Assembly: GCA_024648695.1 (NCBI GenBank)
Contig: JACAVV010000006.1
Coordinates: 1 to 64,000, forward strand
Direction: 5' to 3'
Source: Nitrospina sp.
GTDB taxonomy: Bacteria; Nitrospinota; Nitrospinia; Nitrospinales; JACRGP01
Length of the DNA stretch: 64,000 nucleotides
Part shown: positions 7,240-57,115 of the stretch, piece after piece
How the letters are laid out: every line of letters begins with the position of its first letter
Position numbering within the stretch: position 1 is the first letter of the stretch
Translations under genes and position numbers: made by a program
The notes under the pieces: model-generated
The model's database searches: none
The model's input: only the letters and a program-made list of their open reading frames with translations
What the model was told of the DNA's origin: nothing

Positions 7240-7241
7240 GA

Positions 7242-18457: not shown

Positions 18458-19384
18458 ATGAAACGTTTCTTTTTTTCAGCTATTAGCTTTTTGATCCTGG
18501 TTTTTTATAGCCCCAATGGTGCTATCGCGCAGGCCGATTCCAGGCGCCTCATCTCCATGTCGCCTTCCATCACTGAGATATTGTTTGAGTTAGGGGCAGG
18601 TGACCAGGTAGTTGGTGTGACGGATTTTTGCAGCTGGCCTGAAAAGGTGAAAGCCCTTCCAAAAATAGGGGGATTGATTAATCCCAGCTTTGAAACGATG
18701 GTGTCGTTACAACCTGACCTTGTTATTCTGCAACATGATCGGAATCGATTAATAAAACGATTGGATGCTCTCCACTTAAAAACCCTGCCCGTGAACCTTG
18801 AAAAACTGGAAGATATTCTGGACTCTATTCTAATCATTGGTCGGGCGATTGGCAAAGAGGATCGCGCCGTTCAATTAAGGGAGAAACTTATTAAGCGGAT
18901 TACATTTTTCAAAATCAAACTCAAAGGGGCGCCTAAAAAAACGACCCTGATATTGTTAGGTGATAGCTCCAATCCATACCGGGATTTGTATGCTGTGGGT
19001 AAAAGCACTTTTCTGGATCAACTGTTGTCTCTGGGAGGAGGAGAAAATATTCTCGACGATTCATGGTCTGATTATCCTAGAGTGTCCAAGGAATTTATTC
19101 TCAGTTCGTCACCCCAGTTTATTATTGAGGCCAATCCACATGGCAAGCTTTCTCCTTCGCAAAAAGACAAACGGTCTTCCTTCTGGGACCAGTTCCAAAC
19201 CCTTCAAGCGGTAAAAGAGAGAAACATTCATTACATAGGAGCGGAATTTATTTTGATTCCGGGTCCGCGTTTTTTCAAAATTGTGGAAGCCTTTGCTCAG
19301 GTTCTCCATCCCGAGTTGTTTGAAAGTTCAATGGTGGAGGGATCTGAGTTATCGAAAATTCTGGTCCATGACACCTTGTACTGA
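18458..19384 (+). CDS. btuF: Periplasmic cobalamin-binding protein of an ABC importer (BtuF-like)
   Basis: This 308-residue class III solute-binding protein starts with a signal peptide ending near GAIAQA. The binding-protein fold begins RLISMSPSITEILFELGAGDQVVGVTDFCSWPE, the standard BtuF/FhuD opening, and continues with LVILQ, the long linking helix and LSLGGGENI. It would pick up corrinoids in the periplasm and pass them to BtuCD. No btuC or btuD lies in this window. The position directly behind a cobalamin riboswitch supports the corrinoid role over a siderophore role. Its stop overlaps the cobS start by one base. Confidence 0.88.
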   Translation: MKRFFFSAISFLILVFYSPNGAIAQADSRRLISMSPSITEILFELGAGDQVVGVTDFCSWPEKVKALPKIGGLINPSFETMVSLQPDLVILQHDRNRLIKRLDALHLKTLPVNLEKLEDILDSILIIGRAIGKEDRAVQLREKLIKRITFFKIKLKGAPKKTTLILLGDSSNPYRDLYAVGKSTFLDQLLSLGGGENILDDSWSDYPRVSKEFILSSSPQFIIEANPHGKLSPSQKDKRSSFWDQFQTLQAVKERNIHYIGAEFILIPGPRFFKIVEAFAQVLHPELFESSMVEGSELSKILVHDTLY

Positions 19385-20130
19385 TGAAACTTTTTTTCTC
19401 AGCATGGTCTTTTTTGACCGTATTTCCCTGTCCCGGTAAATCCGTCGATTATGAAAAGGGAATGGTTTTCTATTTTCCCCTGGTCGGTTTGGTTCTGGGA
19501 ATATTGTTACTGGGTGTCGATTTTCTGGCCGGACGTGTTTTTGGAGATTCTTTACGGATAGGCCTGGACGTTTTATTTCTAGCCTGGGTTAGTGGTGGGT
19601 TGCATCTGGATGGTTTAGCTGATTCGGCCGATGGCATGTTTTCTCACCAAAGCAAGGACCGGGTGTTGGAGATCATGCGGGATTCCCGAATTGGTGTCAT
19701 GGGTGTACTGGCCATTGTGTTTTGCCTGGGGTTTAAGGCGGTGGGTTTTGAAAGCCTGCGATGGGACCAATGCTGGTGGCTGTTTCTGGCGGCGCCTGCT
19801 TTATCGCGCTGGACTCAGAGTTGTGGGCTGGTATTTCTGAGCAATGCTCGTGGGGAGGAAAGTTTGGGGGCCCTCTTGTATCAATCCAGGAAATATCGTG
19901 TGCTCAGTTTAGGCATTATTCCCTCTGCGTTGTTTTGTTTTTTTGGAGGACTTAAAGGGATTTTCCTGCTATTGGGTTTTATGCTCGTCCTGATTGTATT
20001 GTTCCGTTACTTTAGCTCAAAGATCGGGGGCATGACGGGTGATACTTTGGGGGCGACGACAGAAATTACAGAGTCTTTTTTATTCGCTTTTGGCAGTTTA
20101 GCCTGCCGGGATTCCTTGATTTTCAATTGA
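19384..20130 (+). CDS. cobS: Adenosylcobinamide-GDP ribazoletransferase (cobalamin synthase)
   Basis: This 248-residue polytopic membrane enzyme joins adenosylcobinamide-GDP to alpha-ribazole (phosphate), the last assembly step of cobalamin. The family signature GGLHLDGLADSADGMFS is near residue 60, followed by LEIMRDSRIGVMG and, towards the C-terminus, KIGGMTGDTLGATTEITE. The length is normal. It is second in the btuF-cobS-cobP/bluB-cobC-cbiB series with one-base overlap to btuF, and is therefore under riboswitch 1. Confidence 0.95.
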   Translation: MKLFFSAWSFLTVFPCPGKSVDYEKGMVFYFPLVGLVLGILLLGVDFLAGRVFGDSLRIGLDVLFLAWVSGGLHLDGLADSADGMFSHQSKDRVLEIMRDSRIGVMGVLAIVFCLGFKAVGFESLRWDQCWWLFLAAPALSRWTQSCGLVFLSNARGEESLGALLYQSRKYRVLSLGIIPSALFCFFGGLKGIFLLLGFMLVLIVLFRYFSSKIGGMTGDTLGATTEITESFLFAFGSLACRDSLIFN

Positions 20131-20144
20131 TAAAATTGGTAAAG

Positions 20145-21380
20145 ATGAACAAAAAAAATATTTTAATCTCAGGTGGATGTCGAAGTGGTAAAAGCCGGCA
20201 TGCACTGGCTCTGGGTCAGAAGTTTACCGGCCGAAAGGTGTTCCTGGCCACGGCTGAAATTTTTGACGATGAAATGAAATCCCGTGTGCAAAAGCACCGC
20301 GAGGAAAGATCCGACGACTGGATCACCATAGAAGAACCTTTGGACCCATTAGCGGCAATATTAAAAGAAAAGGATAAAGCAGATGTGATCCTTTTGGATT
20401 GTCTCACCCTTTGGGTTTCTAATTTATTATTAAAGTACGACGATGAAAAAGTTGTGCTGGAGATTGTGAATGAACTGTTGGAAGCCCTGCCTGTATTACC
20501 CTGTTCCCTGATGTTTATCACCAACGAAGTGGGTGGGGGAATCGTACCGGAAAATAAACTGGGACGGGATTTTAGGGATCTGGCCGGACTGGTCAATCAG
20601 AGAATCGCAGAGGTTTTTGATGAAGTTGTTTATATGGTTTCTGGAATTCCTGTCAAAATCAAGGAACCAATCCAGCAAAATGGTGCAGGAAACAAAAAAT
20701 CGACGCATGAATTTTCGAAAGAAAAAAAACAGGGTTTGTACGAAGCCATTTATCAAAGAAGAGATATGCGACATTTTTTGCCAGACCCTGTGGATCCCGA
20801 GGTACTGGGTAGAGTTTTGCATGCGGCCCATCATGCAGGTTCGGTGGGGTACATGCAACCCTGGAGCTTTATGGTTATTCAGGACCCCGAAATTAAAAAA
20901 CGGGTGGCCGATAACTTCTCGGAAGCCAGTCGGGAGGGTGCTGAACGCTTTGAAGGAGAACGGAAGAAATTGTACGAATCTCTCAAGCTGGAGGGTATTC
21001 AGGATGCCCCGGTTAATATATGCGTGACCTGTGATCGCAACCGATCCGGACCCAATGTTTTGGGTCGCAACACCATGCTGGAGATGGACCTTTTCAGTAC
21101 TTGTTGTGCGGTTCAAAATCTGTGGCTGGCGGCCAGAGCGGAAGGGTTGGCAGTGGGTTGGGTGAGTATACTGTATCCGGAACGCCTGAAAGCTGATTTG
21201 GGCATTCCGGACTCAATTGAAATCGTGGCCTATCTTTGTGTTGGGCACACCGAATCGTTTTACAAAAAACCGTTGCTGGAATCGGCGGGATGGGGCAAGC
21301 GCCTTGACTTGAAGGACCTGGTTTTTTATGACCGTTGGGAAAGCAAGGAATGTGACAATCCCTTATTGCTCCCGGAATAG
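20145..21380 (+). CDS. cobP-bluB: Fused adenosylcobinamide kinase/guanylyltransferase and 5,6-dimethylbenzimidazole synthase (CobP-BluB)
   Basis: One reading frame encodes two enzymes. Residues 1-172 (ATG at 20145; the longer frame starts at TTG 20127) are CobP/CobU: Walker A GGCRSGKS, guanylylated His in RVQKHREER, LLDCLTLWVSNLL and FITNEVGGGIVP. After a polar linker, residues about 195-411 are BluB: YQRRDMRHFLPDPV, AGSVGYMQPWSF and GPNVLGRNTMLEMD. BluB is the flavin enzyme that cuts FMNH2 with O2 to give DMB. The kinase half makes AdoCbi-GDP and the BluB half makes the lower-ligand base; both products converge at CobS. There is no stop or frameshift at the junction. The overlap of DMB formation with nucleotide-loop assembly makes the fusion functionally sensible. 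Confidence 0.93.
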   Translation: MNKKNILISGGCRSGKSRHALALGQKFTGRKVFLATAEIFDDEMKSRVQKHREERSDDWITIEEPLDPLAAILKEKDKADVILLDCLTLWVSNLLLKYDDEKVVLEIVNELLEALPVLPCSLMFITNEVGGGIVPENKLGRDFRDLAGLVNQRIAEVFDEVVYMVSGIPVKIKEPIQQNGAGNKKSTHEFSKEKKQGLYEAIYQRRDMRHFLPDPVDPEVLGRVLHAAHHAGSVGYMQPWSFMVIQDPEIKKRVADNFSEASREGAERFEGERKKLYESLKLEGIQDAPVNICVTCDRNRSGPNVLGRNTMLEMDLFSTCCAVQNLWLAARAEGLAVGWVSILYPERLKADLGIPDSIEIVAYLCVGHTESFYKKPLLESAGWGKRLDLKDLVFYDRWESKECDNPLLLPE

Positions 21381-21388
21381 GATGAAAA

Positions 21389-22561
21389 ATGCCTCTGCTC
21401 ACTCTTAGTGAAAACAACCCCAGGGAAATAATAGACAAAATCGCCTGGGAAAAGATTCCCTCGTATCCCGAGCATGGAGGAAATCCTTCTTCCCTGGCCA
21501 AGGCCTTTGATGTCCGGGTAGAAAAACTGGTCGATTTCAGTGCCAGCCTAAATGGGTTTGGTATTCCTTCGGTTATCAAACCCATTATGGAACATTGGCA
21601 GGATGCGCTTTCCCATTATCCCGAACCCGAGTCGAAGTCTTTCATTCAAAAACTGTCCTCAAATCTGGAAGTTCCTTCAGGGCAATTATTAGCCTGCAAT
21701 GGTTCAACAGAATTGATTCATCTGCTTCCCAGGATATGGCCTCGCGGGACAAGTGTGCTTTCGGTGGTTCCCTGTTTTTCGGAGTACAGTCGGGCATTCA
21801 GGTCTTACCGAATACCGGTTCAAACCTTTCACTACGATTTTCAAAACAATCATTCGAATACTTTTAATCAGCTGAAACATTCTATTAAATCTTTGCCAAG
21901 CTTGGGAGGAATTATCATTGGTCATCCGGCGAGTCCTATGGGAATGTTATGGAATCCTACTGAAATTTGCGAATTAAAAAGCTTGTGTGCGACCAAAAAT
22001 ATATTTTTTGTGGTCGATGAAACATTTATCGAATTCGCTGGCATGGAATATTCATCCTGGGATGAGAACTATATATTCTCCAAACATATAGTCATACGGT
22101 CCCTGACAAAGCTGTACTCTATTCCCGGAATTCGTTTGGGGTACGGGGTTATGGTTCCTCAGTGGAAATCCCTTATTGAATCCAGACAAGTTCCCTGGTC
22201 GGTCAATAGTCTGGCCCAGCAAATAGGTACCGCCGTTTTGGATGATTCCACTTTTGTGTCTTCCAGTCGCGAATTTTTATTACGGGAAAAAAGCTATCTT
22301 GTGGAACAACTGAAAACCATTGGCGGAATCAAAGTGTTTCCCTCTGATGCCAATTTTCTTCTTTTTAAACTGGAAACTGAAGACCAAACCTTTCCAAAAC
22401 GCTTTTTTTTGAGTCTGCTGAAAAAAGGAATTGTGATCCGCTGTTGTCAAAACTTTGAGGGAATGAATCCTTCCTTTTTCAGAATCATGGTCCGTGACCG
22501 CGAGGATAATTCTTTGTTGATATCAAACATACAAGACATTATGAATGAAGAGGGTTATTGA
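21389..22561 (+). CDS. cobC: Threonine-phosphate decarboxylase-like PLP enzyme of cobalamin synthesis
   Basis: This 390-residue class I/II aminotransferase-fold protein is related to histidinol-phosphate aminotransferase. The N-terminal HGGNPSSLAKAF...VDFSASLNGFG is the hallmark of the CobC/CobD group, which decarboxylates L-threonine O-3-phosphate to (R)-1-amino-2-propanol phosphate, the linker attached by CbiB. The PLP lysine is Lys241 in RSLTKLYSIPGIRLGYG. AGGA precedes the ATG at a good distance. It sits between cobP-bluB and cbiB, exactly where the enzyme supplying the aminopropanol arm is expected. The name varies between cobC (aerobic nomenclature) and cobD. Confidence 0.9.
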   Translation: MPLLTLSENNPREIIDKIAWEKIPSYPEHGGNPSSLAKAFDVRVEKLVDFSASLNGFGIPSVIKPIMEHWQDALSHYPEPESKSFIQKLSSNLEVPSGQLLACNGSTELIHLLPRIWPRGTSVLSVVPCFSEYSRAFRSYRIPVQTFHYDFQNNHSNTFNQLKHSIKSLPSLGGIIIGHPASPMGMLWNPTEICELKSLCATKNIFFVVDETFIEFAGMEYSSWDENYIFSKHIVIRSLTKLYSIPGIRLGYGVMVPQWKSLIESRQVPWSVNSLAQQIGTAVLDDSTFVSSSREFLLREKSYLVEQLKTIGGIKVFPSDANFLLFKLETEDQTFPKRFFLSLLKKGIVIRCCQNFEGMNPSFFRIMVRDREDNSLLISNIQDIMNEEGY

Positions 22562-22566
22562 ATTGA

Positions 22567-23499
22567 ATGGAGGGCCAATATTTAATCGCAGTCGCATTGG
22601 TTTTGGATATGGCTTTAGGAGACCCTCAGGGATTTCCACATCCTGTGCGGGCTATCGCCTGGCTTGCTTTAAAGTTGGAGACCGGGTTAAGGTCGACCAG
22701 AGTCCCGTTGGTTTTTGCAGGTGGCCTGACCGTCTTTCTGGTCGTCACAACAAGCTATCTGGTTTGTTATTGGGTGTTGCAATGGTCAAGGGCCATTCAT
22801 CCTGTGTTGGGGGAGATCCTATTAGTGCTGTTGATTTATACAACGCTATCCCTCCGCGGTTTATACGATGCGAGCCAACCTGTTATGATGGCATTACTTG
22901 TAAAAGATTTACCTTTGGCCCGCAAGCATTTGTCTCAAATTGTGGGTCGGGATACCAATTTGCTGGATCAAAACGGAATCATTAGGGCAACCGTGGAAAC
23001 GGTTTCGGAGAATACAATTGACGGGGTGGTAGCGCCTTTGTTTTTTACCTTTTTAGGCGGTGCGCCCCTGGCTGTCGCCTACAAAGCAATCAACACAATG
23101 GATTCTTTGTTTGGTTATAAGAATGAACGGTATGAACAATTTGGAAAAGTGGCCGCGCGATTGGATGATGCGGCCAACTGGATTCCCGCCCGATTGGGAG
23201 GTGTATTGATGGTCCTCGCCGCCGGAATATGCGGATTTCAATTCGTTACATCTTTGAAAGCGTTTTTCAGAGATCGGTTGAATCACAGCAGTCCCAATGC
23301 AGGCCATCCGGAAGCTGCCGCCGCGGGTGCTCTGGGAATAAGTCTTGGTGGACCTTTACATTATTTTGGCCAGATGGTATCCAAACCCTATATTGGTGAA
23401 AATTTACGCGAACCTGTTATTGAAGATATTCAACGAGCGCAGGTATTGATGTTGGCAACATCATTGGTAAGTATCTTTTTGTTTGTAATTATTTTTTAG
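22567..23499 (+). CDS. cbiB: Adenosylcobinamide-phosphate synthase
   Basis: This 310-residue membrane protein attaches aminopropanol (phosphate) to adenosylcobyric acid. Signatures are ALVLDMALGDPQGFPHPVRAI at the N-terminus, IGRDTNLLD-like VGRDTNLLDQNGIIRATVETVSENTIDGVVAPLF, YKAINTMDSLFGYKNERY and SPNAGHPEAAAAGAL. The length and several hydrophobic helices are typical. It is known as cobD in Pseudomonas nomenclature. It is five bases downstream of cobC and ends the first riboswitch-controlled block. Confidence 0.95.
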   Translation: MEGQYLIAVALVLDMALGDPQGFPHPVRAIAWLALKLETGLRSTRVPLVFAGGLTVFLVVTTSYLVCYWVLQWSRAIHPVLGEILLVLLIYTTLSLRGLYDASQPVMMALLVKDLPLARKHLSQIVGRDTNLLDQNGIIRATVETVSENTIDGVVAPLFFTFLGGAPLAVAYKAINTMDSLFGYKNERYEQFGKVAARLDDAANWIPARLGGVLMVLAAGICGFQFVTSLKAFFRDRLNHSSPNAGHPEAAAAGALGISLGGPLHYFGQMVSKPYIGENLREPVIEDIQRAQVLMLATSLVSIFLFVIIF

Positions 23500-23525
23500 A
23501 GGTCTAATATTTAAGTCCATACACA

Positions 23526-23662
23526 TTCCGGTTTAGGGAAGTTCGGTGAAAAACCGACACTGTCCCGCAACTGTGACGGGAAGAAAACCGTTAGATGCCA
23601 CTGTCTTGCAATAGATGGGAAGGTGCGGTGAGTAAAGGCCCCAAGTCAGGAAACCTGGCCGG
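23526..23662 (+). promoter_or_regulatory. Cobalamin riboswitch 2 (upstream of btuB)
   Basis: This is a second B12-element, with GGGAAGTTCGGTGAAAAACCGACACTGTCCCGCAACTGTGACGGG, an exact GCCACTG at 23597-23603 and the B12 box AAGTCAGGAAACCTGG at 23643-23658. It lies 34 bases before btuB. No T-tract hairpin follows. The leader runs straight to AAAGGAG and the ATG at 23696, so translational control is more likely than termination. Confidence 0.94.
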
Positions 23663-23695
23663 AATGATTTTAACTTTCGAGGAAAAGGAGTCGAT

Positions 23696-25546
23696 ATGTC
23701 TCACCGCTATTTTTTCGCTTTATTCAATTTAATTTGTATTCTTTCAGTCCAAATTCCATCTACTTCCATTGCGGCCGAAGAAGATGTTCAGGAACTGAAA
23801 CCCATAGAGGTCAAAGCCGCACGCAACAAACTCCCCATTGAAAATTTGCCCACTTCGGTAACCGTAATCAGTAATGAACAGATTGAGGAGAAGAATTATA
23901 TCAATGTTGAGGAAATGCTCAGGGAAGAACTGGGCATGGACATTGTTCAAAATGGAGCCTTGGGTTCTACAACCTCTGTATTCATGAGAGGGGCGGGTTC
24001 CAATTCTACCCTGGTTATGGTTGATGGCATTCAGGTGAATTCCAACACTACGGGGAGCTTTAATTTTTCAAATATCCTGGCAGAAAATATAGAGCGTGTT
24101 GAAATATTACGCGGACCCCAAAGCACATCCTGGGGGGCGGATGCCGTGGGAGGTGTGATCAACCTTGTCACCAAGCGGGGTAAGGGTGAGCCAACCCATT
24201 CCTTTCTCTTTGAAGGGGGAAGCTTCTCCACATTTAAAGAATCCTTATCCAGCTCCGGCGGCAATGATTTGCTGGACTATTCGGTAACCGCAACACGGAT
24301 CGATTCCGAGGGAATTTCTTCAGCAAATGAAAACCGGGGAAACGACGAAGAGGATGGATATCAGAACACTTCTGTGTCCTTGCGAACTGGAATCAATTTT
24401 CTGGAAGACGGTCGCTTCGATTTCATTGGCCATTATATTCGTAGTCGAATAGAGTTTGATGATTTTGAGTTTGGAGTGGGATCTGTAGATGGCCCTCCCT
24501 TCACGCGCGGCGAACAGTATTATATCGCTCTTCCTCTGGAAAAAAGAATCACTCCCTGGTGGCATGTTCGTTTTAACCCAAACTACGCTTTTGATGAAAC
24601 CCGGGCCAGGAATCAGACTTTTGCCGATACTGATATATTCAGTCGGACCACCACTCTGGATTTGCAAAACACGTTTGATTTTTTGAACTACTTCTCCGTG
24701 GTTCTGGGGGGCGAATACCAAAACCGAAATGGACAAAGTAATGGCACCGGAATCGATGAGGACCTGGATAATCGCAGTGTCTATATGCAAGCGGTATTCG
24801 ACTATAAGGACCGAATCGTGTTAACCGGCGGCTTTCGCTATGATGACAATGATCCCTTCGAAGACGCTCTGACTTATAAGTTTGAAGGAGCCTACCGCAT
24901 CAAAAAATGGGGAACTCGATTGCGGGCCGCCGGTTCCACCGGATTTCGTGCGCCCACGATAAACGACCTTTTTTTTCCAGGATTTAGCAATCCGGATCTG
25001 AAACCTGAAGAGTCCACCAGTTGGGAAGCCGGATTCGATCAAACCTTGTTCGATGGTATGGTTACGTTGAGTTCGGTTTACTTCGATTCCGATTTTGAAA
25101 ACCTGATTCAGTTCAGCCTGGATACCTTTATGCCTGAAAACGTTGCGAAGGCTAAATCAAAGGGAGTGGAAACTACTTTGAAGGTTTTATTGCCCTATGA
25201 TTTCACCCTAAAAGTCAATCACACCTGGAACGATACGTTTGATTTGGAAACTAAAAGGAGATTACGTCGACGGGCGGAACACAAATTCCATACAAATATT
25301 CAGCACAACTGGAAAGACAAGGTAACCAGTTTGTTGGGAATCACCTATAAAAGTAATACGGAAGACGGGGCCTCGGGAAATACCGATCCTTATGTAGTGC
25401 TTCGTGGTGCCGTCCAATATAAACTCAACAGGCACATCAAGTTAACTCTCCGTGGAGAGAATCTGCTGGATGAGGAATATGAAGAAGTGGTTGGATTTGG
25501 CACTCCCGGAGCGGCGGCCTATGCAGGGTTTGTGCTTACCTATTAA
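23696..25546 (+). CDS. btuB: TonB-dependent cobalamin receptor
   Basis: This 616-residue outer-membrane receptor has a signal peptide ending near TSIAA. A plug domain (about residues 40-155) shows NLPTSVTVISNEQIEEKNY, VFMRGAGSNSTLVMVDGIQ and ERVEILRGPQSTSWGADAVGGVINLVTKRG. A 22-stranded-type barrel ends in the C-terminal aromatic strand AYAGFVLTY. Receptors of this kind move corrinoids into the periplasm using TonB energy. The riboswitch directly upstream and the following cob genes identify the substrate class. Length matches BtuB. No TonB/ExbBD genes are in the window. Confidence 0.94.
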   Translation: MSHRYFFALFNLICILSVQIPSTSIAAEEDVQELKPIEVKAARNKLPIENLPTSVTVISNEQIEEKNYINVEEMLREELGMDIVQNGALGSTTSVFMRGAGSNSTLVMVDGIQVNSNTTGSFNFSNILAENIERVEILRGPQSTSWGADAVGGVINLVTKRGKGEPTHSFLFEGGSFSTFKESLSSSGGNDLLDYSVTATRIDSEGISSANENRGNDEEDGYQNTSVSLRTGINFLEDGRFDFIGHYIRSRIEFDDFEFGVGSVDGPPFTRGEQYYIALPLEKRITPWWHVRFNPNYAFDETRARNQTFADTDIFSRTTTLDLQNTFDFLNYFSVVLGGEYQNRNGQSNGTGIDEDLDNRSVYMQAVFDYKDRIVLTGGFRYDDNDPFEDALTYKFEGAYRIKKWGTRLRAAGSTGFRAPTINDLFFPGFSNPDLKPEESTSWEAGFDQTLFDGMVTLSSVYFDSDFENLIQFSLDTFMPENVAKAKSKGVETTLKVLLPYDFTLKVNHTWNDTFDLETKRRLRRRAEHKFHTNIQHNWKDKVTSLLGITYKSNTEDGASGNTDPYVVLRGAVQYKLNRHIKLTLRGENLLDEEYEEVVGFGTPGAAAYAGFVLTY

Positions 25547-25567
25547 TTTTTTCAACTACTAGCGGTC

Positions 25568-26959
25568 ATGATAGCTTCTCATAAAATTCCCAACGGGGTC
25601 ATAATAGCCGGAACGCAAACTTCAATCGGCAAGTCATCGGTTTCCGTAGGGTTTATGAGAGCCCTCAAAAAAAGGGGCTTGCTTGTGAGCCCCTTTAAGG
25701 TTGGCCCGGATTACATTGATCCCGGACACCATTCGCGCGCCTGCGCCCGACCCAGCTATAATCTGGATTCCTGGATGTGTTCCAAAAAGTACGTTCGTGC
25801 CTTGTATGACGAGGTTTCTGCCCAGGGAAACATCTCCGTTGTAGAAGGCGTCATGGGATTGTTCGATGGCGCTTATTCCAACCGGGATACCGGTTCTACG
25901 GCAGAGATGGCCAAACTCCTGAACCTGCCCGTTATCCTGATAGTGGATGGATCAGGAATGGCCCGTTCATTTGCCGCTATCGTGAAAGGTTTCGAGGAAA
26001 TGGATACCCAAGTGAAAATTTTGGGAGTCATTGCCAACCGGGTTCGTTCTCCCGGTCACGCTCAGATTTTGAAGGAGGCATTAAAAAAATACACCTCTTG
26101 CAAGTTTCTAGGTAACCTGCCTCACCGTCCTGAACTGGAAATCCCCAGTAGGCACCTGGGCCTGCATATGGGTCATGAGCAAATGGATACCCTGTACGAC
26201 AAGTGGGCGGATCATATTGAGAATCATTTGGATGTGGCCTGGATATTAAAACAGTTTGGAGTTAAAGGAGGTAAGAAGGTATCTTCCGCTCAGAAAGAAC
26301 TGCCTGCACGATGGAAAGTATCCAAACCCTCGCCATTTAAAATCGCCATTGCCAGGGATGAAGCGTTCCAGTTTCTTTATCAGGACACATTAGATTTGAT
26401 CCGATACCTGGGTGGGACTATAGAGTTTTTTTCACCTGTCAAAAGTCTTAAACTGCCCGTTCAAATCAATGCGATATATTTTCCGGGAGGATATCCCGAA
26501 CAGTATGCAGGGAGGCTTTCAAAAAATAAAAAGCTGATTTCAGAAATTTCCGATTTTGCTTTGCAGGGAGGTCCTATTCTTGCCGAATGCGGGGGTTTGA
26601 TGTATTTAGGAAAGGAATTAATTGATGAAAATGGTAAGAGTCATCCCATGGTCGGTTTATTCGATTATAGCACTTCAATAGCAAACAAAAGCCTGACCTT
26701 GGGCTACCGTTCATTGCGAGGAAGTTTGAAAAGCAACAACAGTGCAGGTCTTTTAAAGGGGCACGAATTTCATTATTCTAGTTTTTTAAAGAATCCACAT
26801 AAACCTCAATGGACACATTTTCAAAAGAATAAAGGTAAAGATACCCGGGATGGTTATGTTTTCAAGAACTGTCATGCCTGGTACTCCCATATCTACTGGG
26901 GCACGGTGCCAAAGCTTTTTAAAAGTCTATTGGGTCTTAAAATTAATGAAAGCTGTTGA
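25568..26959 (+). CDS. cbiA: Cobyrinic acid a,c-diamide synthase
   Basis: This 463-residue two-domain amidase has an N-terminal ATP-binding domain (IIAGTQTSIGKSSVSVGFMRAL, then PFKVGPDYIDPGHHSRA and VVEGVMGLFDG) and a C-terminal glutamine amidotransferase. The latter has Cys341 in ILAECGGLMYLG after YFPGGYPEQYA, and a histidine in HEFHYS. It amidates the a and c side chains of cobyrinate using glutamine and ATP. It follows btuB by 21 bases. Its presence shows that the cell handles incomplete corrinoids, not just complete vitamin. Cobyric acid synthase is not in the window. It overlaps cbiZ by 14 bases. Confidence 0.94.
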   Translation: MIASHKIPNGVIIAGTQTSIGKSSVSVGFMRALKKRGLLVSPFKVGPDYIDPGHHSRACARPSYNLDSWMCSKKYVRALYDEVSAQGNISVVEGVMGLFDGAYSNRDTGSTAEMAKLLNLPVILIVDGSGMARSFAAIVKGFEEMDTQVKILGVIANRVRSPGHAQILKEALKKYTSCKFLGNLPHRPELEIPSRHLGLHMGHEQMDTLYDKWADHIENHLDVAWILKQFGVKGGKKVSSAQKELPARWKVSKPSPFKIAIARDEAFQFLYQDTLDLIRYLGGTIEFFSPVKSLKLPVQINAIYFPGGYPEQYAGRLSKNKKLISEISDFALQGGPILAECGGLMYLGKELIDENGKSHPMVGLFDYSTSIANKSLTLGYRSLRGSLKSNNSAGLLKGHEFHYSSFLKNPHKPQWTHFQKNKGKDTRDGYVFKNCHAWYSHIYWGTVPKLFKSLLGLKINESC

Positions 26960-49621: not shown

Positions 49622-50386
49622 TTATCCAAAAAATTTTCTTAGGGCCCCTAAAAAAGATGTCCTAAGTTCTTCCAAACGGGCGGTATCCACCGATAATGTT
49701 TCCCGATTGAACCACGGTTGTTTAAGATACAAAGAACGGTTCATCTCGATTTGTATCCAGGGGAGGGGAGCATTGCCGTATTTCTTTGTGATAAAACCTC
49801 CCGCAAAGGGTTGGTTGATTGTGACTTCATTCTCTCCTAATTGAAAACTTTCCCGAAAGCATTCAGCTAATTTTTCTGCCCACTCATTGGGACAACTTTC
49901 CCCATGATTGTTTCCAAGGCAAATCATGGGCCGTTCTTGCCCTCTATCCGGTGAAATTTCAGGACCGATGGCCTCCATTGAGTGACAGTCCAGCGCCAAT
50001 TGAAGGCCTGGTTGTTTTGCAAGCAGGTCGACGATTTTTTGATGGTAGACATGATAATAACCCTGAATCAATTTTTTAATTAAAGGTTCACCCGGAAAGT
50101 CGTCATACCGGTAGATGGCTTTCCCATGACAGGTCCGTGTTTTAATAATGCCATCCGGGTTTTTCGGTGGCCGATCTAGCACATCCCGGTTTAAATCGAT
50201 GATGGCTCTGGCAATTTTTGTTTCAACCAAAGCCATGACATTTTCTTTTATTCCATAAATTTCACGAGTAAAGGAATCACTATCTTCAAACAAATCTTTT
50301 GAGGAAAGGCAAACTTTATCAATAACTTCAGAAGGCACTAGATCTCCCCCATGAGGGATTGAAATTAAAATAGGTAAATAACTCAA
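49622..50386 (-). CDS. N-formylglutamate amidohydrolase family protein
   Basis: This 254-residue zinc hydrolase family member has LISIPHGGDLVPSEV, the DLNRDVLDRPP motif, ALDCHSMEAIGP and INQPFAGGFITKKYG...IQIEMNRSLYL. Family enzymes cut N-formylglutamate (end of histidine degradation) or related N-acyl amino acids. No hut genes are in the window, so the substrate may differ. It converges on the transketolase pair and lies 5-7 kb from two gamma-glutamyltransferases, but no operon link is seen. Confidence 0.86.
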   Translation of the reverse strand: MSYLPILISIPHGGDLVPSEVIDKVCLSSKDLFEDSDSFTREIYGIKENVMALVETKIARAIIDLNRDVLDRPPKNPDGIIKTRTCHGKAIYRYDDFPGEPLIKKLIQGYYHVYHQKIVDLLAKQPGLQLALDCHSMEAIGPEISPDRGQERPMICLGNNHGESCPNEWAEKLAECFRESFQLGENEVTINQPFAGGFITKKYGNAPLPWIQIEMNRSLYLKQPWFNRETLSVDTARLEELRTSFLGALRKFFG

Positions 50387-50954: not shown

Positions 50955-51233
50955 ATGTCTAAAACCATGAAAAGTCTGATTTCCGTTTTAACTCTGCTGA
51001 TGTTTGTATTCGTGTCAAACCTTGCATTCGCTAATTCGGAGTTTCAAAAACTCGGAATTGATAACGTTTCTGGATTCCAAAGCAAATCCCTGATCCTTAT
51101 GAATGACGACGAGGAAAAAGGTGATGGTGAAGAAGATGACAGGGGTGACGGCGATGACGAGGAAAAAGGTGATGGTGAAGAAGACGACAGGGGTGACGGC
51201 GATGACGAGGAAAAAGGTGATGATAAAGATTAA
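50955..51233 (+). CDS. Small secreted, highly acidic Asp/Glu/Gly repeat protein
   Basis: This 92-residue protein has a clear Sec signal peptide ending SNLAFA, a short neutral segment, and then two and a half copies of a 16-residue unit DDEEKGDGEEDDRGDG. The mature C-terminus is almost wholly Asp, Glu and Gly with single Lys/Arg residues, so it should be disordered and could bind Ca2+ or other cations. GGAG precedes the start. No family is recognised. It is monocistronic with a stem-loop behind it. The neighbouring ggt operon is convergent. Confidence 0.72.
   Translation: MSKTMKSLISVLTLLMFVFVSNLAFANSEFQKLGIDNVSGFQSKSLILMNDDEEKGDGEEDDRGDGDDEEKGDGEEDDRGDGDDEEKGDDKD
51105..51233 (+). repeat. 48-nt tandem repeat, 2.7 copies
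   Basis: Units at 51105-51152 and 51153-51200, and a truncated third unit from 51201, differ by only a few bases, such as GAC/GAT and GAT/GAC changes. They encode the acidic 16-residue repeats. Near identity at DNA level points to recent slippage or unequal exchange, so copy number may vary between strains. Confidence 0.85.
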
Positions 51234-51336: not shown

Positions 51337-52971
51337 TCAGGAGGGTCCCTCAGCAGTGCCATCACGGCGGATTTCTGCCACTCCTTGAAACTCATCTTTC
51401 GTTTGGGCTTTCAATACTCCATGAACAGCTCCCAAATAAAAGGACCACGGTTCCCTTCGATCCAATTTATACCCCACCTGCTCCAGATACTTAATCGTGT
51501 CCAAATCGAATCGGTCTGCCTCCAGACTCAGTTTTCCTCCAACCGAACAATGTAACCGTGGTTTCAGCATGGCTTCACTTATTGGAAGATCGCAATCGAT
51601 AATGTGAGAAAGAAACTGACCCATGGCTGAAAATATACGATCACTTCCAGGACTTCCTGCAACCAACCAGGGCTTATCCTTATAAAATGCAATGATAGGA
51701 GCGACAGAACTCCACGGAATCGCATTGGGCCTTAAATAGTAAGGGTGAGAAGGGTCGCTGGTATCCAGGGAACTCATGTAGTTGTTGTAGAGAAAACCCA
51801 ATCCTCGTGCCGCAACCTTGGCTCCATAAACAAGTTCAATGGACTGTGTGATTCCAATAGCATTGCCTTCTGAATCCATCACCGATAAATGGGTGGTGTC
51901 GTTACTCAAGGAAAAGAGCTCTGTTAAAGGCAGAGCAGGGTCGATGCCATCCCTGATGGAAGCAGAAAGCTGACGTGCAAAATCCACACTGAGAATTTTT
52001 TTATCATGAGGCAATTGCGGATAAATATTGGGATCGAAAGGACGCTCTTTATGATTGAGAAGACCTTTACGAATGGTTTCTGCGAGAAAATGATATTTTT
52101 TTGGACTGGGATTCCTTAAAAATTTGGAGGGCAGGTTTTTCAACATTTGCATTACCAGGAGCAAAGTACGGCCTGCTCCCGGAGGTGGGCTTGTGAAGAT
52201 CTTTACCTTTCTGTAAGTCCGTCGAATCGGCTTTCTCTCAATCGGCCAGGGTGTGAGCGCCAGGTCCTCGGCTCGAAGAAAGCCCTCATGAAACCGCATG
52301 TCCTCGTCAATTTGCTTGGCCACGTCTCCTGTATAAAAGGCTTTCACTCCATGCTGAGCCAGATGATCCAGCAATCCGGCAAGGTCCTGTTGAACAAAGG
52401 TATCTCCTACAGCATACGGTTCTTTTCCTTCTTTCAGAAAATATTTGGCTCCGGACAGGGAATCCATTCCAAGAAACTTATCCAGTTCCCTTTTTTGAAG
52501 TCCATGCTGAAGCTCGGTTATGGCATAACCCTCCCTGGCGATTTGTATGGCGGGTTGCAATATCTCCCTCCAGTCCAGTTTTCCGTAGCGGAAATGCAAA
52601 TAACCCAAAACCGCAGGAGTGCTGGGAACCGTAGTCGATTTATAACCGCGAAAGCGGTGTTTTTTCTTGTCCATTCGGTCAATATGCGCAAGAGATGGAA
52701 CCCTGCTGGAACCGTCGATGGCTATGGTTTTACCCTGAAAATGAAGAATGGCCATGGATTGTCCACCTATACCGCTGGCCTGAGGTTCACAGACACTCAA
52801 GGCAAAAGCCGCGGCGCAGGCGGCATCAATTGCATTACCTCCCATTCGAAGCATTTGGACACCCGCTTCCGTAGCCTGGGGAAAAGCGGTTGAAACCATG
52901 CCCTTTTTCGAAACAGCACATTTGCCATCTTCCGTAGGTTGGAAACGACCTTCAATTTTTTCAATTTTCAT
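51337..52971 (-). CDS. ggt: Gamma-glutamyltransferase family protein without signal peptide
   Basis: This 544-residue Ntn-hydrolase is of the GGT family. The self-processing and catalytic threonine is Thr359 in NDTTHLSVMD, with GGNAIDAACAAAFALSV and AVLGYLHFRYGKL upstream and the small-subunit SSVAPIIAFYKD...LVAGSPGSDRI downstream. There is no N-terminal signal sequence (MKIEKIEGRFQPTED), unlike classical periplasmic GGT, so it is probably cytoplasmic. Its start overlaps the stop of the ATP-grasp gene (TAATG). The pair suggests that the ligase product and this transferase/hydrolase act on the same gamma-glutamyl or related peptide. Confidence 0.9.
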   Translation of the reverse strand: MKIEKIEGRFQPTEDGKCAVSKKGMVSTAFPQATEAGVQMLRMGGNAIDAACAAAFALSVCEPQASGIGGQSMAILHFQGKTIAIDGSSRVPSLAHIDRMDKKKHRFRGYKSTTVPSTPAVLGYLHFRYGKLDWREILQPAIQIAREGYAITELQHGLQKRELDKFLGMDSLSGAKYFLKEGKEPYAVGDTFVQQDLAGLLDHLAQHGVKAFYTGDVAKQIDEDMRFHEGFLRAEDLALTPWPIERKPIRRTYRKVKIFTSPPPGAGRTLLLVMQMLKNLPSKFLRNPSPKKYHFLAETIRKGLLNHKERPFDPNIYPQLPHDKKILSVDFARQLSASIRDGIDPALPLTELFSLSNDTTHLSVMDSEGNAIGITQSIELVYGAKVAARGLGFLYNNYMSSLDTSDPSHPYYLRPNAIPWSSVAPIIAFYKDKPWLVAGSPGSDRIFSAMGQFLSHIIDCDLPISEAMLKPRLHCSVGGKLSLEADRFDLDTIKYLEQVGYKLDRREPWSFYLGAVHGVLKAQTKDEFQGVAEIRRDGTAEGPS

Positions 52972-55163
52972 TAGGCGAAATTCTTTGAAGTTTTATAAAT
53001 GAGATATGCAAGAAGGACACTTCTATCAATCAAACTGTCTCTTACAATAAACTCGTTTTTAGTCCCCGTACCCCCAGTAACAGGCCCAAAACCATCAATT
53101 GCAGGGACCCCATCGGAAACATAGGACAAGGGGGTGGAAGTCGGGTTTTCGTGTTCTTTTATACGAACTTCGACCAGTTTGGCGATTCGTTCCAATTCGC
53201 CAAAAAACTTTACGGTCTGTTCATTAGAAAGAAAGGGCGGTCGTTGGGGACCTTTGGTGATATGGATTTTGATATTTTCGGTGCTTTTGGCCTCAAACAA
53301 TTTATTGATGCGTTCTTCGAGAATACTACGTTGATCCGGATTTTGATAACGAATCACAAAGGATAAAGCCACATGATAAGCAGGCTGGTTTTCTATTCCT
53401 TTGGATTCAACACCGGTAAGGGTCAGGAATGCCCCTTCAGAAGCTGAGTTCATTTTTTTTAATTGATGCATTTTTTGAGAGATAAAGAGAAGTAAATCTT
53501 CTCCTTCTGAAATAGATTTAATCGTTGACCGGGTATGACGTTTGTTGATTTCAATGTCAAACTTCATTGAACCAAAACAGGATATCATCACTTCACCGGA
53601 AAGACCCGCACCACTTAAACCCGCAATATAACGGGATTTTTTGGAAATTTCTTCCAGGATAGGTTTGGAGGAACGACCCCCTCTGGAATCGTCCGTAATA
53701 AACAAGATCCCAACCTTTAATTTTTTCAGGGTTCGCGTATGGCGCAGAGCCTGTAAAGCTCCCAGTAAGACAGCCAACCCACCCTTGCCTCTGGAAACCC
53801 CTGTTCCATAGAGTCGTCCCCTTTCTTCGGAGAAGGGGGTGTAATCCTCAAAATCTGATGGGTTATCAAGGTTTCCAACAAGCAGGATATCGTTCTTTTC
53901 ATCCATGTGATTGCTAAAATACAAAATGTTTCCCAACTCGGCTCTGCTATAAACCTGGCGATTGAACCCCATAGTAGACAATTTATTGGAAACCCATCGG
54001 CCCAGAGAGTTGACTCCTTCAATATTTTCATAGAAAGAATTGATGTCGACCATCTTTTCCAGATTGTCCTCCATGGTAATGAGATTTCCACGGAGATAAC
54101 TTCTTAACCGCACCCTCAAAGGATCACTTTTAGTTTTCTCCTCTTGTTGCACTTCCACCGAAATTTGATCCATTTGCTGATTCCCAAAGTATCGTTCGAC
54201 AGCAACGTCCAGCATCCGGTTGATCATGGATTCATAGGAATAACCCGCCTTTTTAGCCGAAAAGACATAACTTCCCGTTTCTCCCAAACTGGCCATGGAG
54301 TTTAATTCCAGAATGTACAGGTTGCCTTCACTGTCCATACGGTAATCCACTCGGCAAAAGTCATAGATCCCCAGTACGTTAAATGTTTCTTTCGTCAAGC
54401 GGCGCATTTCTTCAGCAAGCCCTTCCTCAATTTCTGCTGGGCAAATTTTTCTTTTTGGGGTCTTAAGCTTATCTTCCAATGATTGAATAGCATTGGGGTC
54501 GCCCTCCAGGTCGATTTCAACTATAGGCAATACCTCAGCATTGTTGTTTCCGAGCAGACCAACTGCAAACTCCCTTCCAGGTATGAATTGTTCGACCAAA
54601 ACCGGTTGTTTGAACTGGTCGACCAGGTTGGCAATGGCAACTTTCAGGGATTGCGTATCATGAACCACCTGAATGCCTAATGAAACAGCTTCCATCTTGG
54701 GTTTTGTAATGACGGGAAAAGGTAAATCATCGGGAATCTGATCGACATTGTAAAAAACCCAGTAAGGTGCTGTAGGAAGTCCTGCGGCGTGAATCATGAC
54801 TTTAGTTGAAACTTTGTCCAGAGCAATCCCGTGGCCTGCTGGGCTGGATCCTACATAGGGCACACCCAGCATTTCCAGTAATGATGGAATATGGGTATAA
54901 CGGCTGACACCCTGGAGCCCATATGCCATGTTGAAAACCATACCCGGTTGTTCACCCTGAACAACCCGGGGCATGAAGGTTTGAAGTTGCTCAATAACGT
55001 TGATATTTCCGTCAATCACCCGGACATTGTGTCCACCCTTTTCCAGGGCAGAAGCTACCTTTTCTACCGTTTTAGGGTTGTATGTTTCCTGGTTTTGCAT
55101 TCCAAAAACATTGATCACTCCTTCAACATCTTGCTTCTTATTAAATATCACTGCCACTTTCAT
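52971..55163 (-). CDS. ATP-grasp ligase (D-Ala-D-Ala ligase-like) fused to a metal-site-less M20 peptidase-like domain
   Basis: The ATG at 55163 (MKVAVIFNKK, with GAGGTG ahead) gives 730 residues. Residues 1-330 form a D-Ala-D-Ala-ligase-type ATP-grasp domain: IPSLLEMLGVPYVGSSPAG, PFPVITKPK, VLVEQFIPGREFAVG, and CRVDYRMDSEGNLYILELNSMASLGETGSY with its metal ligands. Residues about 370-730 follow the M20/carboxypeptidase G2 layout: ILLVGNLDN, RLYGTGVSRGKGG, FITDDSRGG and GGTGTKNEF. Aligned by eye to that family, the five metal ligands become Asn431, Arg458, Ser493, Ser517 and Thr699, so it is unlikely to bind two zincs. The ligase domain appears functional. It is followed by the coupled ggt gene. 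The substrate is unknown; joining two amino acids or peptides is the family reaction. Confidence 0.85.
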   Translation of the reverse strand: MKVAVIFNKKQDVEGVINVFGMQNQETYNPKTVEKVASALEKGGHNVRVIDGNINVIEQLQTFMPRVVQGEQPGMVFNMAYGLQGVSRYTHIPSLLEMLGVPYVGSSPAGHGIALDKVSTKVMIHAAGLPTAPYWVFYNVDQIPDDLPFPVITKPKMEAVSLGIQVVHDTQSLKVAIANLVDQFKQPVLVEQFIPGREFAVGLLGNNNAEVLPIVEIDLEGDPNAIQSLEDKLKTPKRKICPAEIEEGLAEEMRRLTKETFNVLGIYDFCRVDYRMDSEGNLYILELNSMASLGETGSYVFSAKKAGYSYESMINRMLDVAVERYFGNQQMDQISVEVQQEEKTKSDPLRVRLRSYLRGNLITMEDNLEKMVDINSFYENIEGVNSLGRWVSNKLSTMGFNRQVYSRAELGNILYFSNHMDEKNDILLVGNLDNPSDFEDYTPFSEERGRLYGTGVSRGKGGLAVLLGALQALRHTRTLKKLKVGILFITDDSRGGRSSKPILEEISKKSRYIAGLSGAGLSGEVMISCFGSMKFDIEINKRHTRSTIKSISEGEDLLLFISQKMHQLKKMNSASEGAFLTLTGVESKGIENQPAYHVALSFVIRYQNPDQRSILEERINKLFEAKSTENIKIHITKGPQRPPFLSNEQTVKFFGELERIAKLVEVRIKEHENPTSTPLSYVSDGVPAIDGFGPVTGGTGTKNEFIVRDSLIDRSVLLAYLIYKTSKNFA

Positions 55164-55363
55164 AAGGCACCTCAAAAGGTTTAAATGGTGCGTTTGGTTA
55201 TTATCACCATTTTTTATTTTTAAAAAAATATAAAGTAGCCATGCATAAAAACCCATAACCCCCGGATGATTCCAACGTTGAAATGAGTTTCCAATTTATG
55301 CTGACAAGGGTTTTAAATTAAATATTTTAAATATTACTGCAAACCTGGTAACGTTTTAAGCCA

Positions 55364-57115
55364 TTAATAACCCAGGGTTAACGCACCGGGACGACGCGGA
55401 TCGGATGCCCCGGTGAATCTATTTTCATCCCTCAGTACGGATTGAGTTGACCCCATTGCGTTTTTTACAACAATTTTGTGTCCCTTTGTAGCCAACAAGC
55501 GGAGGGTATCGGGATTGAATCCTTTTTCGACCCTGAGTTTATCAGGATGCCATTGGTGATGGATTCTTTTTGCATTTGTGGCCTCGGCAACGTTCATCTC
55601 GTGATCAATTACATTAATGATAACTTGAAGAATGGCGTTGATCAAACGAGGTCCTCCCGGACTTCCCGTTGCCAGATAAGGTTTGCCCTCTTTAAGAATA
55701 ATCATGGGAGACATGGAACTCAGAGGCCGTTTAGTGGGTTGAATGGCATTGGCCCGTCCCCCAAGTAACCCATAAGCATTGGGAACACCCTCTTTAGCTG
55801 AAAAATTATCCATTTCGTCGTTTAAAAGAATTCCTGTTCCCTTGATAACGATGCCGGATCCGAAACTGAAATTCAAGGTGGTGGTGTTCGAAACAATATT
55901 TCCGTATTGATCCATTATGGAAAAATGGGTGGTCTCATCACTTTCAAAGGGATCCGGGCTTTCGGGTTTAATTTTCCTGGAAGGCCGGGTTTGGTAAGGA
56001 TTGATTTTTTTGCGAATCTTATTTGCGTAATCTTTAGAGATCAGGCCACTGATCGGGACCGTCCACCAATCCTGATCTCCTAAATATTTACTCCTGTCGG
56101 CAAAAGCAAACTTCATGGATTCGGCCATCAGGTGCAGGGATTCGGCGCTGTTTGGGCCAAGGTATCCTAAAGGGTATTGTTCCAGGATATTAAGCATCTG
56201 GATAATATGGATACCCCCGGAACTGGGCGGTGGCATACCATAAACATCATAACCCCTGTAGGTACCGTGGACTGGCTCTCTTTCCTTAACCCGGTAGTTT
56301 TTTAAATCCTCGAAAGTGATGTGCCCATCGTGCTCCTCCATGTCTGCCACTATTTTTTGAGCGATCTCTCCCTCATAAAATACCTTTGGGCCTTTTTCAG
56401 AAATTTGTCTCAAGGATTCTGCTAATTCCTTAAAATACATGCGCTCACCTACTTGATAAACCGAACCATCTTCCTTGAAATAGATCCTTTTGGTTTCCTC
56501 CCATTTTTGTAACCGTTCCTTACCTTTGCTTAAAGTAAATACATGATCCTGGTTGACAATGATTCCCTCCTCGGCCAGGCGAATGGCGGGAGCCATCACT
56601 TCTTTCAAGGTCAAGGTGCCATATTTTTTCAGCACATGGCAAAGCCCGGCAACTGAGCCCGGAACTCCTGCAGATTTGTAAGAAGACTGGGCCAAATACT
56701 CATCGACTTCTTGATTATTATCCAGATACATATCGGGTTCAGAAGCCAATGGAGCCGTTTCGCGGTAATCCACCGAAAAAACTTTATTGTCTTTGGCGGA
56801 GTATCCCATGAAAAATCCACCTCCCCCAATATTTCCTGCACGGGGAAGAGTGACAGCCAGTGCAAAACCAACGGCCACTGCCGCATCAAATGCGTTTCCT
56901 CCTTTTTTTAATATTTCAACCCCGATTCGCGTCGCGTTTTCTTCCTGGCTTGCAACCATTCCATTATTAGCCAGTACAGGATGAAAAATATCTTCCTGTT
57001 CATAAATTCCACCCTGAAAGGAAAGACCCATCGCAGGCAATATAAAAAGAGAACAGGAAAGCGTAACCACCATAATTTTTGAATGAGTTGTTTTTAGAAA
57101 ATCACAAATTTGCAT
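55364..57115 (-). CDS. ggt: Exported gamma-glutamyltransferase
   Basis: This 583-residue GGT has an N-terminal signal segment (IMVVTLSCSLFILPAMG). The large subunit has GGNAFDAAVAVGFALAVTLPRAGNIGGGGFFMGY, and the catalytic threonine is Thr395 in DETTHFSIMD. The small subunit has NTTTLNFSFGSGI, GILLNDEMDNFS and SSMSPMIILKEGKPYLATGSPGG. It should process itself in the periplasm and cleave glutathione or other gamma-glutamyl compounds. It is of classical length. It lies 200 bases upstream of the ATP-grasp/ggt pair on the same strand and has its own signal, so it may be the extracytoplasmic arm of the same pathway. Confidence 0.93.
   Translation of the reverse strand: MQICDFLKTTHSKIMVVTLSCSLFILPAMGLSFQGGIYEQEDIFHPVLANNGMVASQEENATRIGVEILKKGGNAFDAAVAVGFALAVTLPRAGNIGGGGFFMGYSAKDNKVFSVDYRETAPLASEPDMYLDNNQEVDEYLAQSSYKSAGVPGSVAGLCHVLKKYGTLTLKEVMAPAIRLAEEGIIVNQDHVFTLSKGKERLQKWEETKRIYFKEDGSVYQVGERMYFKELAESLRQISEKGPKVFYEGEIAQKIVADMEEHDGHITFEDLKNYRVKEREPVHGTYRGYDVYGMPPPSSGGIHIIQMLNILEQYPLGYLGPNSAESLHLMAESMKFAFADRSKYLGDQDWWTVPISGLISKDYANKIRKKINPYQTRPSRKIKPESPDPFESDETTHFSIMDQYGNIVSNTTTLNFSFGSGIVIKGTGILLNDEMDNFSAKEGVPNAYGLLGGRANAIQPTKRPLSSMSPMIILKEGKPYLATGSPGGPRLINAILQVIINVIDHEMNVAEATNAKRIHHQWHPDKLRVEKGFNPDTLRLLATKGHKIVVKNAMGSTQSVLRDENRFTGASDPRRPGALTLGY

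Follow-up and report, generated by a model that had tools for sequence, protein, structure and literature searches.

Gene organization of the locus

We analyzed a group of genes on the minus strand of a 64,000-nucleotide stretch of Nitrospina sp. DNA (the whole stretch is hereafter called the window), which encodes a putative ATP-grasp ligase and candidate partner amidohydrolases. The window was placed on contig C12 of a 4.2-Mb genome, and the record titles of its nearest relatives in the genome collection include Nitrospinaceae bacterium and Nitrospina sp. Four genes are transcribed in the order GGTexp, LIG, GGTcyt, and FGase. LIG (52971 to 55163) encodes a predicted fusion protein of 730 amino acids, composed of an ATP-grasp ligase and a metal-free M20 pseudo-peptidase, with PF07478 and PF01546 both matching above the cut-off. 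Its N-terminal half (residues 1 to 340; 54144 to 55163) is a Ddl-like ATP-grasp domain according to matches with Ddl structures, and its C-terminal half (residues 345 to 730; 52974 to 54131) was assigned the M20/carboxypeptidase G2 (CPG2) fold without zinc ligands by VIA-align and sequence alignment. GGTcyt (51337 to 52971) encodes a predicted cytosolic amidohydrolase of the gamma-glutamyltransferase (GGT) superfamily (PF01019) with an altered donor pocket, in which no signal peptide was seen. FGase (49622 to 50386) encodes an enzyme of the N-formylglutamate amidohydrolase family (PF05013) and is the third gene of the conserved unit. GGTexp (55364 to 57115) encodes a canonical-looking GGT (TIGR00066) with a hydrophobic N-terminus and was judged to be a neighbor outside the unit.

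The longest open reading frame (ORF) of LIG starts at 55256 and encodes 761 amino acids, and an alternative start at 55163 gives 730 amino acids. We set the start at 55163, as the LIG proteins of relatives begin at the same Met, 31 codons into the longest frame, and GAGGTG precedes this ATG. The true start is probably 55163 rather than 55256; therefore, GGTexp ends 200 bases upstream of LIG.

An initial annotation of this locus described an ATP-grasp gene coupled to a GGT gene without a signal peptide, and the stop codon of LIG and the ATG of GGTcyt indeed overlap as TAATG. The ATP-grasp domain was correctly recognized, but the M20-peptidase fold at residues ~345 to 730 was overlooked. LIG and GGTcyt were correctly joined, but FGase, located outside the annotated range, was missed. 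An exported GGT was reported upstream of the ligase gene; GGTexp is present there on the minus strand with its hydrophobic N-terminus, but it is not part of the conserved unit, as described below. Taken as a whole, the observation made in the initial annotation was partly confirmed and its interpretation partly supported.

Conservation of the unit in the phylum

We searched 77 genomes of the phylum, a sample in which incomplete drafts contribute to the absences. LIG was found in 23 genomes and a close GGTcyt (E < 1e-290) in 22, adjoining LIG in every case. The only genome with LIG and without GGTcyt was G052, in which the match is limited to LIG residues 1 to 272 (6979 to 7794) and reaches the end of a 7,794-base contig, if G052 corresponds to the L041 record. 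A full or near-full FGase was detected by profile search in 20 genomes, each time at most 1.1 kb downstream of GGTcyt. The gene order was not made by chance, because the same LIG-GGTcyt-FGase order recurs in 20 of the 77 genomes. Two genomes with GGTcyt, G051 and G054, have no full FGase. In both, the GGT match reaches no further than position 490 of 543, ending at the first base of the contig in G051 and at the last base in G054, if the latter corresponds to the L032 record (5,120 bases). Two further FGase fragments were found, one in G054 and one in G042, which has neither LIG nor GGTcyt. The fragment of G042 (L102 on contig C202, 8362 to 8619; 86 residues, 55% identical to FGase) may be what is left of a lost unit.

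In the genome collection, whose loci overlap with the 77 genomes so that the two sets of counts are not independent, we considered the 16 loci in which GGTcyt is complete or nearly so and the sequence continues for 750 bases or more past it. FGase was present in all of these except L033. GGTcyt and FGase were both present in L052, which is the same place as L039. Four of 20 loci, whose contigs measure 3.5 to 27 kb, stand under titles other than Nitrospinota (Planctomycetota, Woeseiaceae, Phycisphaerales, and Nitrosomonas); mis-binning is the probable cause. The distance between GGTcyt and FGase is ~950 bases in the window and usually 3 to 10 bases in relatives. Gaps of ~1 kb between these two genes were also seen in L036 and L038. 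The gap in the window contains a 92-amino-acid ORF on the plus strand (50955 to 51233) without a Pfam match, whose product has a hydrophobic N-terminus followed by acidic DDEEKGDGEEDDRGDG repeats.

GGTexp was rejected as part of the unit, as the window genome is the only one in which the two are neighbors and no relative was found beside the unit elsewhere. Its relatives were weaker matches in 10 genomes, three of which lack the unit, and the two that we checked were 54 to 56% identical to GGTexp. Thus, for the trio that the initial annotation proposed to test across genomes, the LIG-GGTcyt pair recurs in 22 of the 77 genomes, but the exported GGT adjoins it in the window genome alone, and the suggested cycle using the exported enzyme is unsupported. 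The LIG-GGTcyt pair is real, conserved, and non-trivial, and GGTexp is incidental. No further neighbor common to most loci was seen beyond LIG, GGTcyt, and FGase in the 17 loci compared.

One explanation for such a unit is that LIG makes a compatible-solute dipeptide, similarly to the N-acetylglutaminylglutamine amide (NAGGN) system, and that the two amidases degrade the dipeptide at falling salinity. The NAGGN genes encode an acetyltransferase-ligase together with an amidotransferase and an M42 hydrolase, and the system resembles the present unit in combining an ATP-grasp ligase and a hydrolase in one cluster. The record titles of the relatives point to marine groups, and unit-bearing genomes are larger within the order (completeness-corrected median 3.5 vs 2.7 Mb; 23 vs 41 genomes). 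However, most genomes of this order lack the unit, and none of the three NAGGN-type genes was noticed as conserved beside it: no acetyltransferase or amidotransferase neighbor is common to most of the 17 loci. No NAGGN family appeared for LIG among the 25 listed of 53 NCBIfam families in a scan of LIG itself. In addition, the published osmolyte genes of Nitrospinae are others, namely those for ectoine, betaine, and sucrose (PMC8026999). We consider synthesis of a solute dipeptide unlikely.

The ATP-grasp half of LIG differs from Ddl

PF07478, the Ddl-type ATP-grasp family, matched residues 156 to 349 of the 761-amino-acid reading of LIG with 109 bits, above the cut-off. By sequence, the best structural relatives of the N-terminal half are Ddl enzymes (8evx and 2dln). 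The segments of the ATP/Mg site are kept, with CRVD and ELNSMAS of LIG aligned to PRVD and EMNTIPG of Ddl. LIG thus shares the ATP-grasp family and the ATP-site segments with Ddl, and these likenesses would suit an ordinary D-Ala-D-Ala ligase with unrelated neighbors.

Three results led us to reject this assignment. First, LIG failed the test for the Ddl family (TIGR01205) with 135.6 bits against a cut-off of 245.65. Second, the Ddl of the window genome is encoded by a separate gene on another contig (L056), located between murB-like and ftsQ-like ORFs, with a MurC-like ORF before the MurB-like ORF; these names were given from reading of the translations. Third, in an alignment read by eye, LIG has Leu and Gly at the positions of the D-Ala-binding residues Tyr216 and Ser281 of E. 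coli DdlB, and both Tyr and Ser are retained in the separate Ddl of the same genome. The conserved gene order and the C-terminal M20 fusion also distinguish LIG from Ddl. An ordinary Ddl, an outcome that the initial annotation named as refuting its proposal, is therefore extremely improbable.

A second Ddl-like fusion was observed in the order. It joins a class I methyltransferase to a Ddl-like ATP-grasp domain (~645 amino acids) and is encoded beside an M32 carboxypeptidase in L043 (700 to 6002; G010) and L047 (2540 to 5991; G031), with a deacetylase-like protein also in L043. Other weak LIG matches lie in open frames of 530 to 736 amino acids and may represent more methyltransferase-ATP-grasp fusions.

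The M20 half of LIG has lost the zinc site

PF01546 (M20) matched residues 474 to 754 of the 761-amino-acid reading with 51.1 bits (cut-off 24.6). VIA-align placed LIG residues 347 to 728 on CPG2 (1cg2) with a Z of 34.6 and an rmsd of 5.4 over 372 aligned residues. An AlphaFold model of LIG based on 18 orthologues had a mean pLDDT of 59.9, with a usable M20 half.

We mapped the zinc ligands onto LIG by phmmer alignment to CPG2 and aligned the 18 LIG orthologues. The two-zinc site of CPG2 is formed by H112, D141, E176, E200, and H385. The equivalents of D141, E176, and E200 are never Asp or Glu in the 18 orthologues, that of H112 is lost in 16 and is His in two, and that of H385 is never His in any orthologue, in both possible alignment registers. 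At the position of the catalytic base (E175), some orthologues have Glu and others have Asp, Asn, Tyr, or Gly. All 18 orthologues retain Asp433 of LIG, the counterpart of D114 of CPG2, and two other positions, Ser493 and Gly700, do not vary. Four plasmid-borne M20 proteins were used as controls with the same alignment script, and all keep His-Asp-Asp-Glu-Glu-Glu; their last His falls beside LIG position 699, at the invariant Gly700 column. These four were the readable proteins, and one from Photobacterium was left out (28-residue frame with a wrong start). The NHMDE segment of LIG was considered as the M20 HxD motif and rejected, as the CPG2 alignment puts the motif at GNLDN. LIG thus resembles CPG2 and the M20 peptidases in the fold of its C-terminal half and differs from them in the absence of zinc ligands and in the fusion to a ligase. 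As the zinc ligands are lost, this half is probably not a peptidase.

We calculated dN/dS (NG86) for eight pairs of orthologues. All eight pairs gave values of 0.02 to 0.14 in the M20 half, and the seven pairs computable for the ATP-grasp half gave 0.02 to 0.06; some dS values were saturated, and the dS of the ATP-grasp half was not computable for the pair L028 and L029. Because of these low values, the M20 half is not decaying; it is under purifying selection, similar to the ATP-grasp half. Invariant positions were enriched around the lost catalytic sites (28 of 61 positions within six residues of them vs 72 of 316 among the other positions of the domain; p 4e-4). The former catalytic pocket may be retained, with the caveat that glycine-rich M20 motifs would be conserved in any M20 protein.

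GGTcyt has an altered donor pocket

GGTcyt matched PF01019 with 364.8 bits (cut-off 27). In the test for the GGT equivalog (TIGR00066; cut-off 357.85), GGTcyt failed with 333.8 bits and GGTexp passed with 595.9 bits. The residues of GGTcyt were mapped by profile alignment to E. coli GGT (2e0w), and 17 members were aligned. The catalytic Thr (T391 of E. coli GGT) corresponds to T359 of GGTcyt and is kept in 17 of 17. A review names R114, N411, Q430, and D433 as the gamma-glutamyl donor site of GGT (PMC8062742). All 17 members have Ser in place of R114, Glu in place of N411, Tyr in place of Q430, and Ser or Ala in place of D433. G484 is changed to Ser, the T409 position is kept as Ser, and G483 and S462 are kept. 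GGTcyt therefore shares the family, the nucleophile, and these last three positions with GGT and differs from it in the donor pocket, G484, and the absence of a signal peptide. In GGTexp, R114 and N411 are both retained, whereas the positions of Q430 and D433 are occupied by Glu and Asn.

In the pathway derived from the initial annotation, the ligase makes a gamma-glutamyl peptide (a thiol, osmolyte, or signal) that the two GGTs recycle. Both GGTs are real, they are adjacent in the window, and they are the only products of PF01019 genes in the window genome. The accompanying claim that GshA and GshB are absent holds for GCS2-type GshA, with no match to PF04107 in the genome; for GshB, its ATP domain (PF02955) gave only two weak matches (30.1 and 23.3 bits). 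Moreover, according to the same review, some of the changed residues occur in GGTs active on gamma-glutamyl substrates: Ser replaces R114 in two GGTs from extremophiles, and Glu stands at the N411 and Q430 positions in the B. subtilis enzyme (PMC8062742). However, GGTexp lies beside the unit in no other locus, and GGT-like second matches occur in three genomes without the unit. Since the donor-pocket residues are replaced in 17 of 17 members, with no equivalents of R114, Q430, and D433 (Tyr and Ser for the latter two in GGTcyt), and the equivalog cut-off is not reached, gamma-glutamyl chemistry of GGTcyt and a gamma-glutamyl product are unproven. The pocket changes lower the likelihood of a gamma-glutamyl substrate without removing it, and we regard the proposed gamma-glutamyl pathway as improbable.

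FGase matched PF05013 with 163.2 bits (cut-off 28.9) and failed the test for the HutG equivalog (TIGR02017) with 93.1 bits against a cut-off of 278.75.

Related gene pairs outside the phylum

To survey relatives outside the phylum, we scanned a chromosome collection and searched plasmid records. The former was one scan using patterns from one sequence, so that relatives below ~60% identity may be missed. A tblastn search of LIG against 72,556 plasmid records matched 586 records, and the best match was an ATP-grasp protein of Bradyrhizobium barranii, which is 45% identical to LIG over residues 1 to 328; the match ends with the ATP-grasp half. An independent search with GGTcyt matched 714 plasmid records, and the best match was encoded two places upstream of the same ATP-grasp gene. 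The operon on this plasmid of B. barranii 323S2 (L079) encodes a KamA-family radical SAM enzyme, a GGT-like protein, a 7TM_transglut protein, and the ATP-grasp protein. The GGT-like protein is 40% identical to GGTcyt, has the same altered pocket pattern, and groups with GGTcyt in a small 12-sequence tree (support 0.998). A rhizobial plasmid thus carries a related pair in which the ligase is unfused and the GGT pocket shows the same unusual residues. This operon differs from the Nitrospinales unit in that the ligase is not fused to M20, FGase is lacking, and the KamA-family and 7TM_transglut genes are added. Among 13 rhizobial plasmid records with a close ATP-grasp gene, FGase was found in none, and KamA-like genes were nearby in three (two of 12 strains). 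Relatives of the M20 half on plasmids were weak (24 records, with 21 to 26% identity in the 15 listed).

Beta-lysine chemistry was considered for the unit because of these KamA-like genes, but no link was shown. The only LAM_C (PF12544) match of the window genome is a KamA-like gene on another contig, which is nearer to KamA of Thioflavicoccus (40%) than to that of Bradyrhizobium (31%).

Gamma-glutamylated amines are handled by a route in which a tag is attached and later removed. In a similar protecting-group or catabolic-tag scheme, LIG would attach an amino acid, other enzymes would act, and GGTcyt and FGase would remove the tag. A ligase accompanied by a dedicated N-terminal nucleophile (Ntn) amidohydrolase and an N-acyl-amino-acid hydrolase would suit this cycle, as would the KamA-family enzyme accompanying the Bradyrhizobium pair. 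However, most of the 17 Nitrospinales loci compared share no enzyme gene next to these three; thus, the intermediate tag chemistry would lie elsewhere. A tag cycle is about as improbable as the gamma-glutamyl pathway.

The Bradyrhizobium operon also bears on a pair that would modify a protein or peptide, adding and trimming residues on a macromolecule as in RimK/RimB or RloC/RloA. According to a study on Pseudomonas, the 7TM_transglut family, present in the Bradyrhizobium operon, is the membrane partner of the RloC ATP-grasp protein, and loss of the ATP-grasp or 7TM protein of the rlo operon rescues loss of the proteases (PMC12239564). The M20 domain could bind a C-terminal tail. Against this explanation, Pfam and NCBIfam assign the ATP-grasp half of LIG to the Ddl type, not the RimK type. 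The Pseudomonas rlo/rim systems (RloABC and RimBK) are alike in that an ATP-grasp enzyme is genetically opposed to a peptide-cutting enzyme (PMC12239564), but they combine a RimK-type ATP-grasp protein with retropepsin-like proteases, in place of the Ddl-type ligase with GGT and FGase described here. A macromolecule-modifying pair is quite unlikely.

ATP-grasp relatives were also observed on two other plasmids. In Vibrio gigantis plasmid p1 (L084, 5950 to 7104), a protein 31% like LIG is encoded among type VI secretion genes and an MFS transporter gene. In a Thioflavicoccus plasmid (L083, 2557 to 8038), a protein 30% like LIG is accompanied by a diaminobutyrate transaminase, SbnA, an ornithine cyclodeaminase-like protein, and a KamA-family protein, in a cluster that resembles a small peptide-type biosynthesis cluster. 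A scan of viral contigs with LIG gave 24 stretches, none of which was confirmed. In phage records, 23 matched part of LIG and none covered 80%, with the eight listed falling in or mostly in the ATP-grasp part, and PHROGs gave one weak match.

A possible make-and-break module

We tentatively propose that LIG, GGTcyt, and FGase form a three-gene cytosolic module that makes and breaks a small, peptide-like amide metabolite in Nitrospinales, a reading to which we give somewhat less than an even chance. The observed basis is the gene order, the co-occurrence, the residue changes, and the purifying selection; from these we infer the role of the M20 domain and every chemical step with its direction. 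Being Ddl-like but apparently not specific for D-Ala-D-Ala, the ATP-grasp half of LIG would join a carboxylate to an amine at the expense of ATP. The nearest active relatives of the M20 domain remove C-terminal glutamate. Without zincs, this domain would be unable to cleave. Its probable role is to bind either the acceptor or the product, so as to keep the bound molecule close to the ligase or to regulate the ligase. GGTcyt, an Ntn-hydrolase with an intact Thr nucleophile, would hydrolyze or transfer the acyl group of the amide made by LIG. The acyl part is likely N-blocked or other than plain gamma-glutamyl, because the pocket of GGTcyt lost the residues gripping the free alpha-amino group. 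FGase would then strip the N-acyl group, so that glutamate or a comparable amino acid is recovered. Glutamate chemistry is no more than a shared theme here, drawn from an M20 domain near glutamate carboxypeptidase, a GGT relative, and an FGase relative below the HutG cut-off. By analogy, the module is supported by the Pseudomonas rlo operon, a genetic precedent in which a hydrolase counteracts an ATP-grasp enzyme (PMC12239564).

Several points weigh against the proposed module. AlphaFold modeled the ATP-grasp half poorly, with pLDDT mostly between 30 and 60. FGase is missing from L033, where other genes occupy 4.4 kb downstream of GGTcyt. A GGT-like gene lies within 8 to 9 kb of the ATP-grasp gene in two of the 13 rhizobial records, both from one strain. 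With Ser at R114 in characterized extremophile GGTs and Glu at N411 in B. subtilis GGT, GGTcyt may still hydrolyze gamma-glutamyl compounds. Finally, it is from gene order alone that we infer the action of the three enzymes on one compound.

In general terms, the module is of a known kind, an ATP-grasp ligase with partner hydrolases, and its unusual part is the fused metal-free M20 domain. We recognized no description of the LIG-GGTcyt-FGase unit in searches of an open-access paper library. A previously undescribed module is a doubtful but conceivable outcome; it would comprise an ATP-grasp ligase with its fused, metal-free M20 pseudo-peptidase as a substrate- or product-binding regulatory domain, a new cytosolic subfamily of GGT-like Ntn-hydrolases, and an FGase-like amidase, acting on an amide that is perhaps N-blocked or contains a beta-amino acid. 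If the proposed module is correct, a peptidase fold has been recruited as the non-catalytic partner of an amide ligase. The unit provides a concrete set of three candidate genes for an uncharacterized metabolite in Nitrospinales, which include ecologically important nitrite oxidizers. The automatic names D-Ala ligase, gamma-glutamyltransferase, and N-formylglutamate deformylase may mislead for these genes.

Other features of the window

Three further features were observed on the plus strand of the window. A protein of 1913 amino acids that contains three Calx-beta domains and ten DUF5650 repeats is encoded at 352 to 6093, and a caspase-fold (PF00656) protein of 444 amino acids at 8865 to 10199. 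A cobalamin-type cluster at 18458 to 26959 contains genes for a periplasmic binding protein, CobS, a CobU-nitroreductase fusion, an aminotransferase, CobD/CbiB, a TonB receptor, and a CobB/CobQ-like protein.

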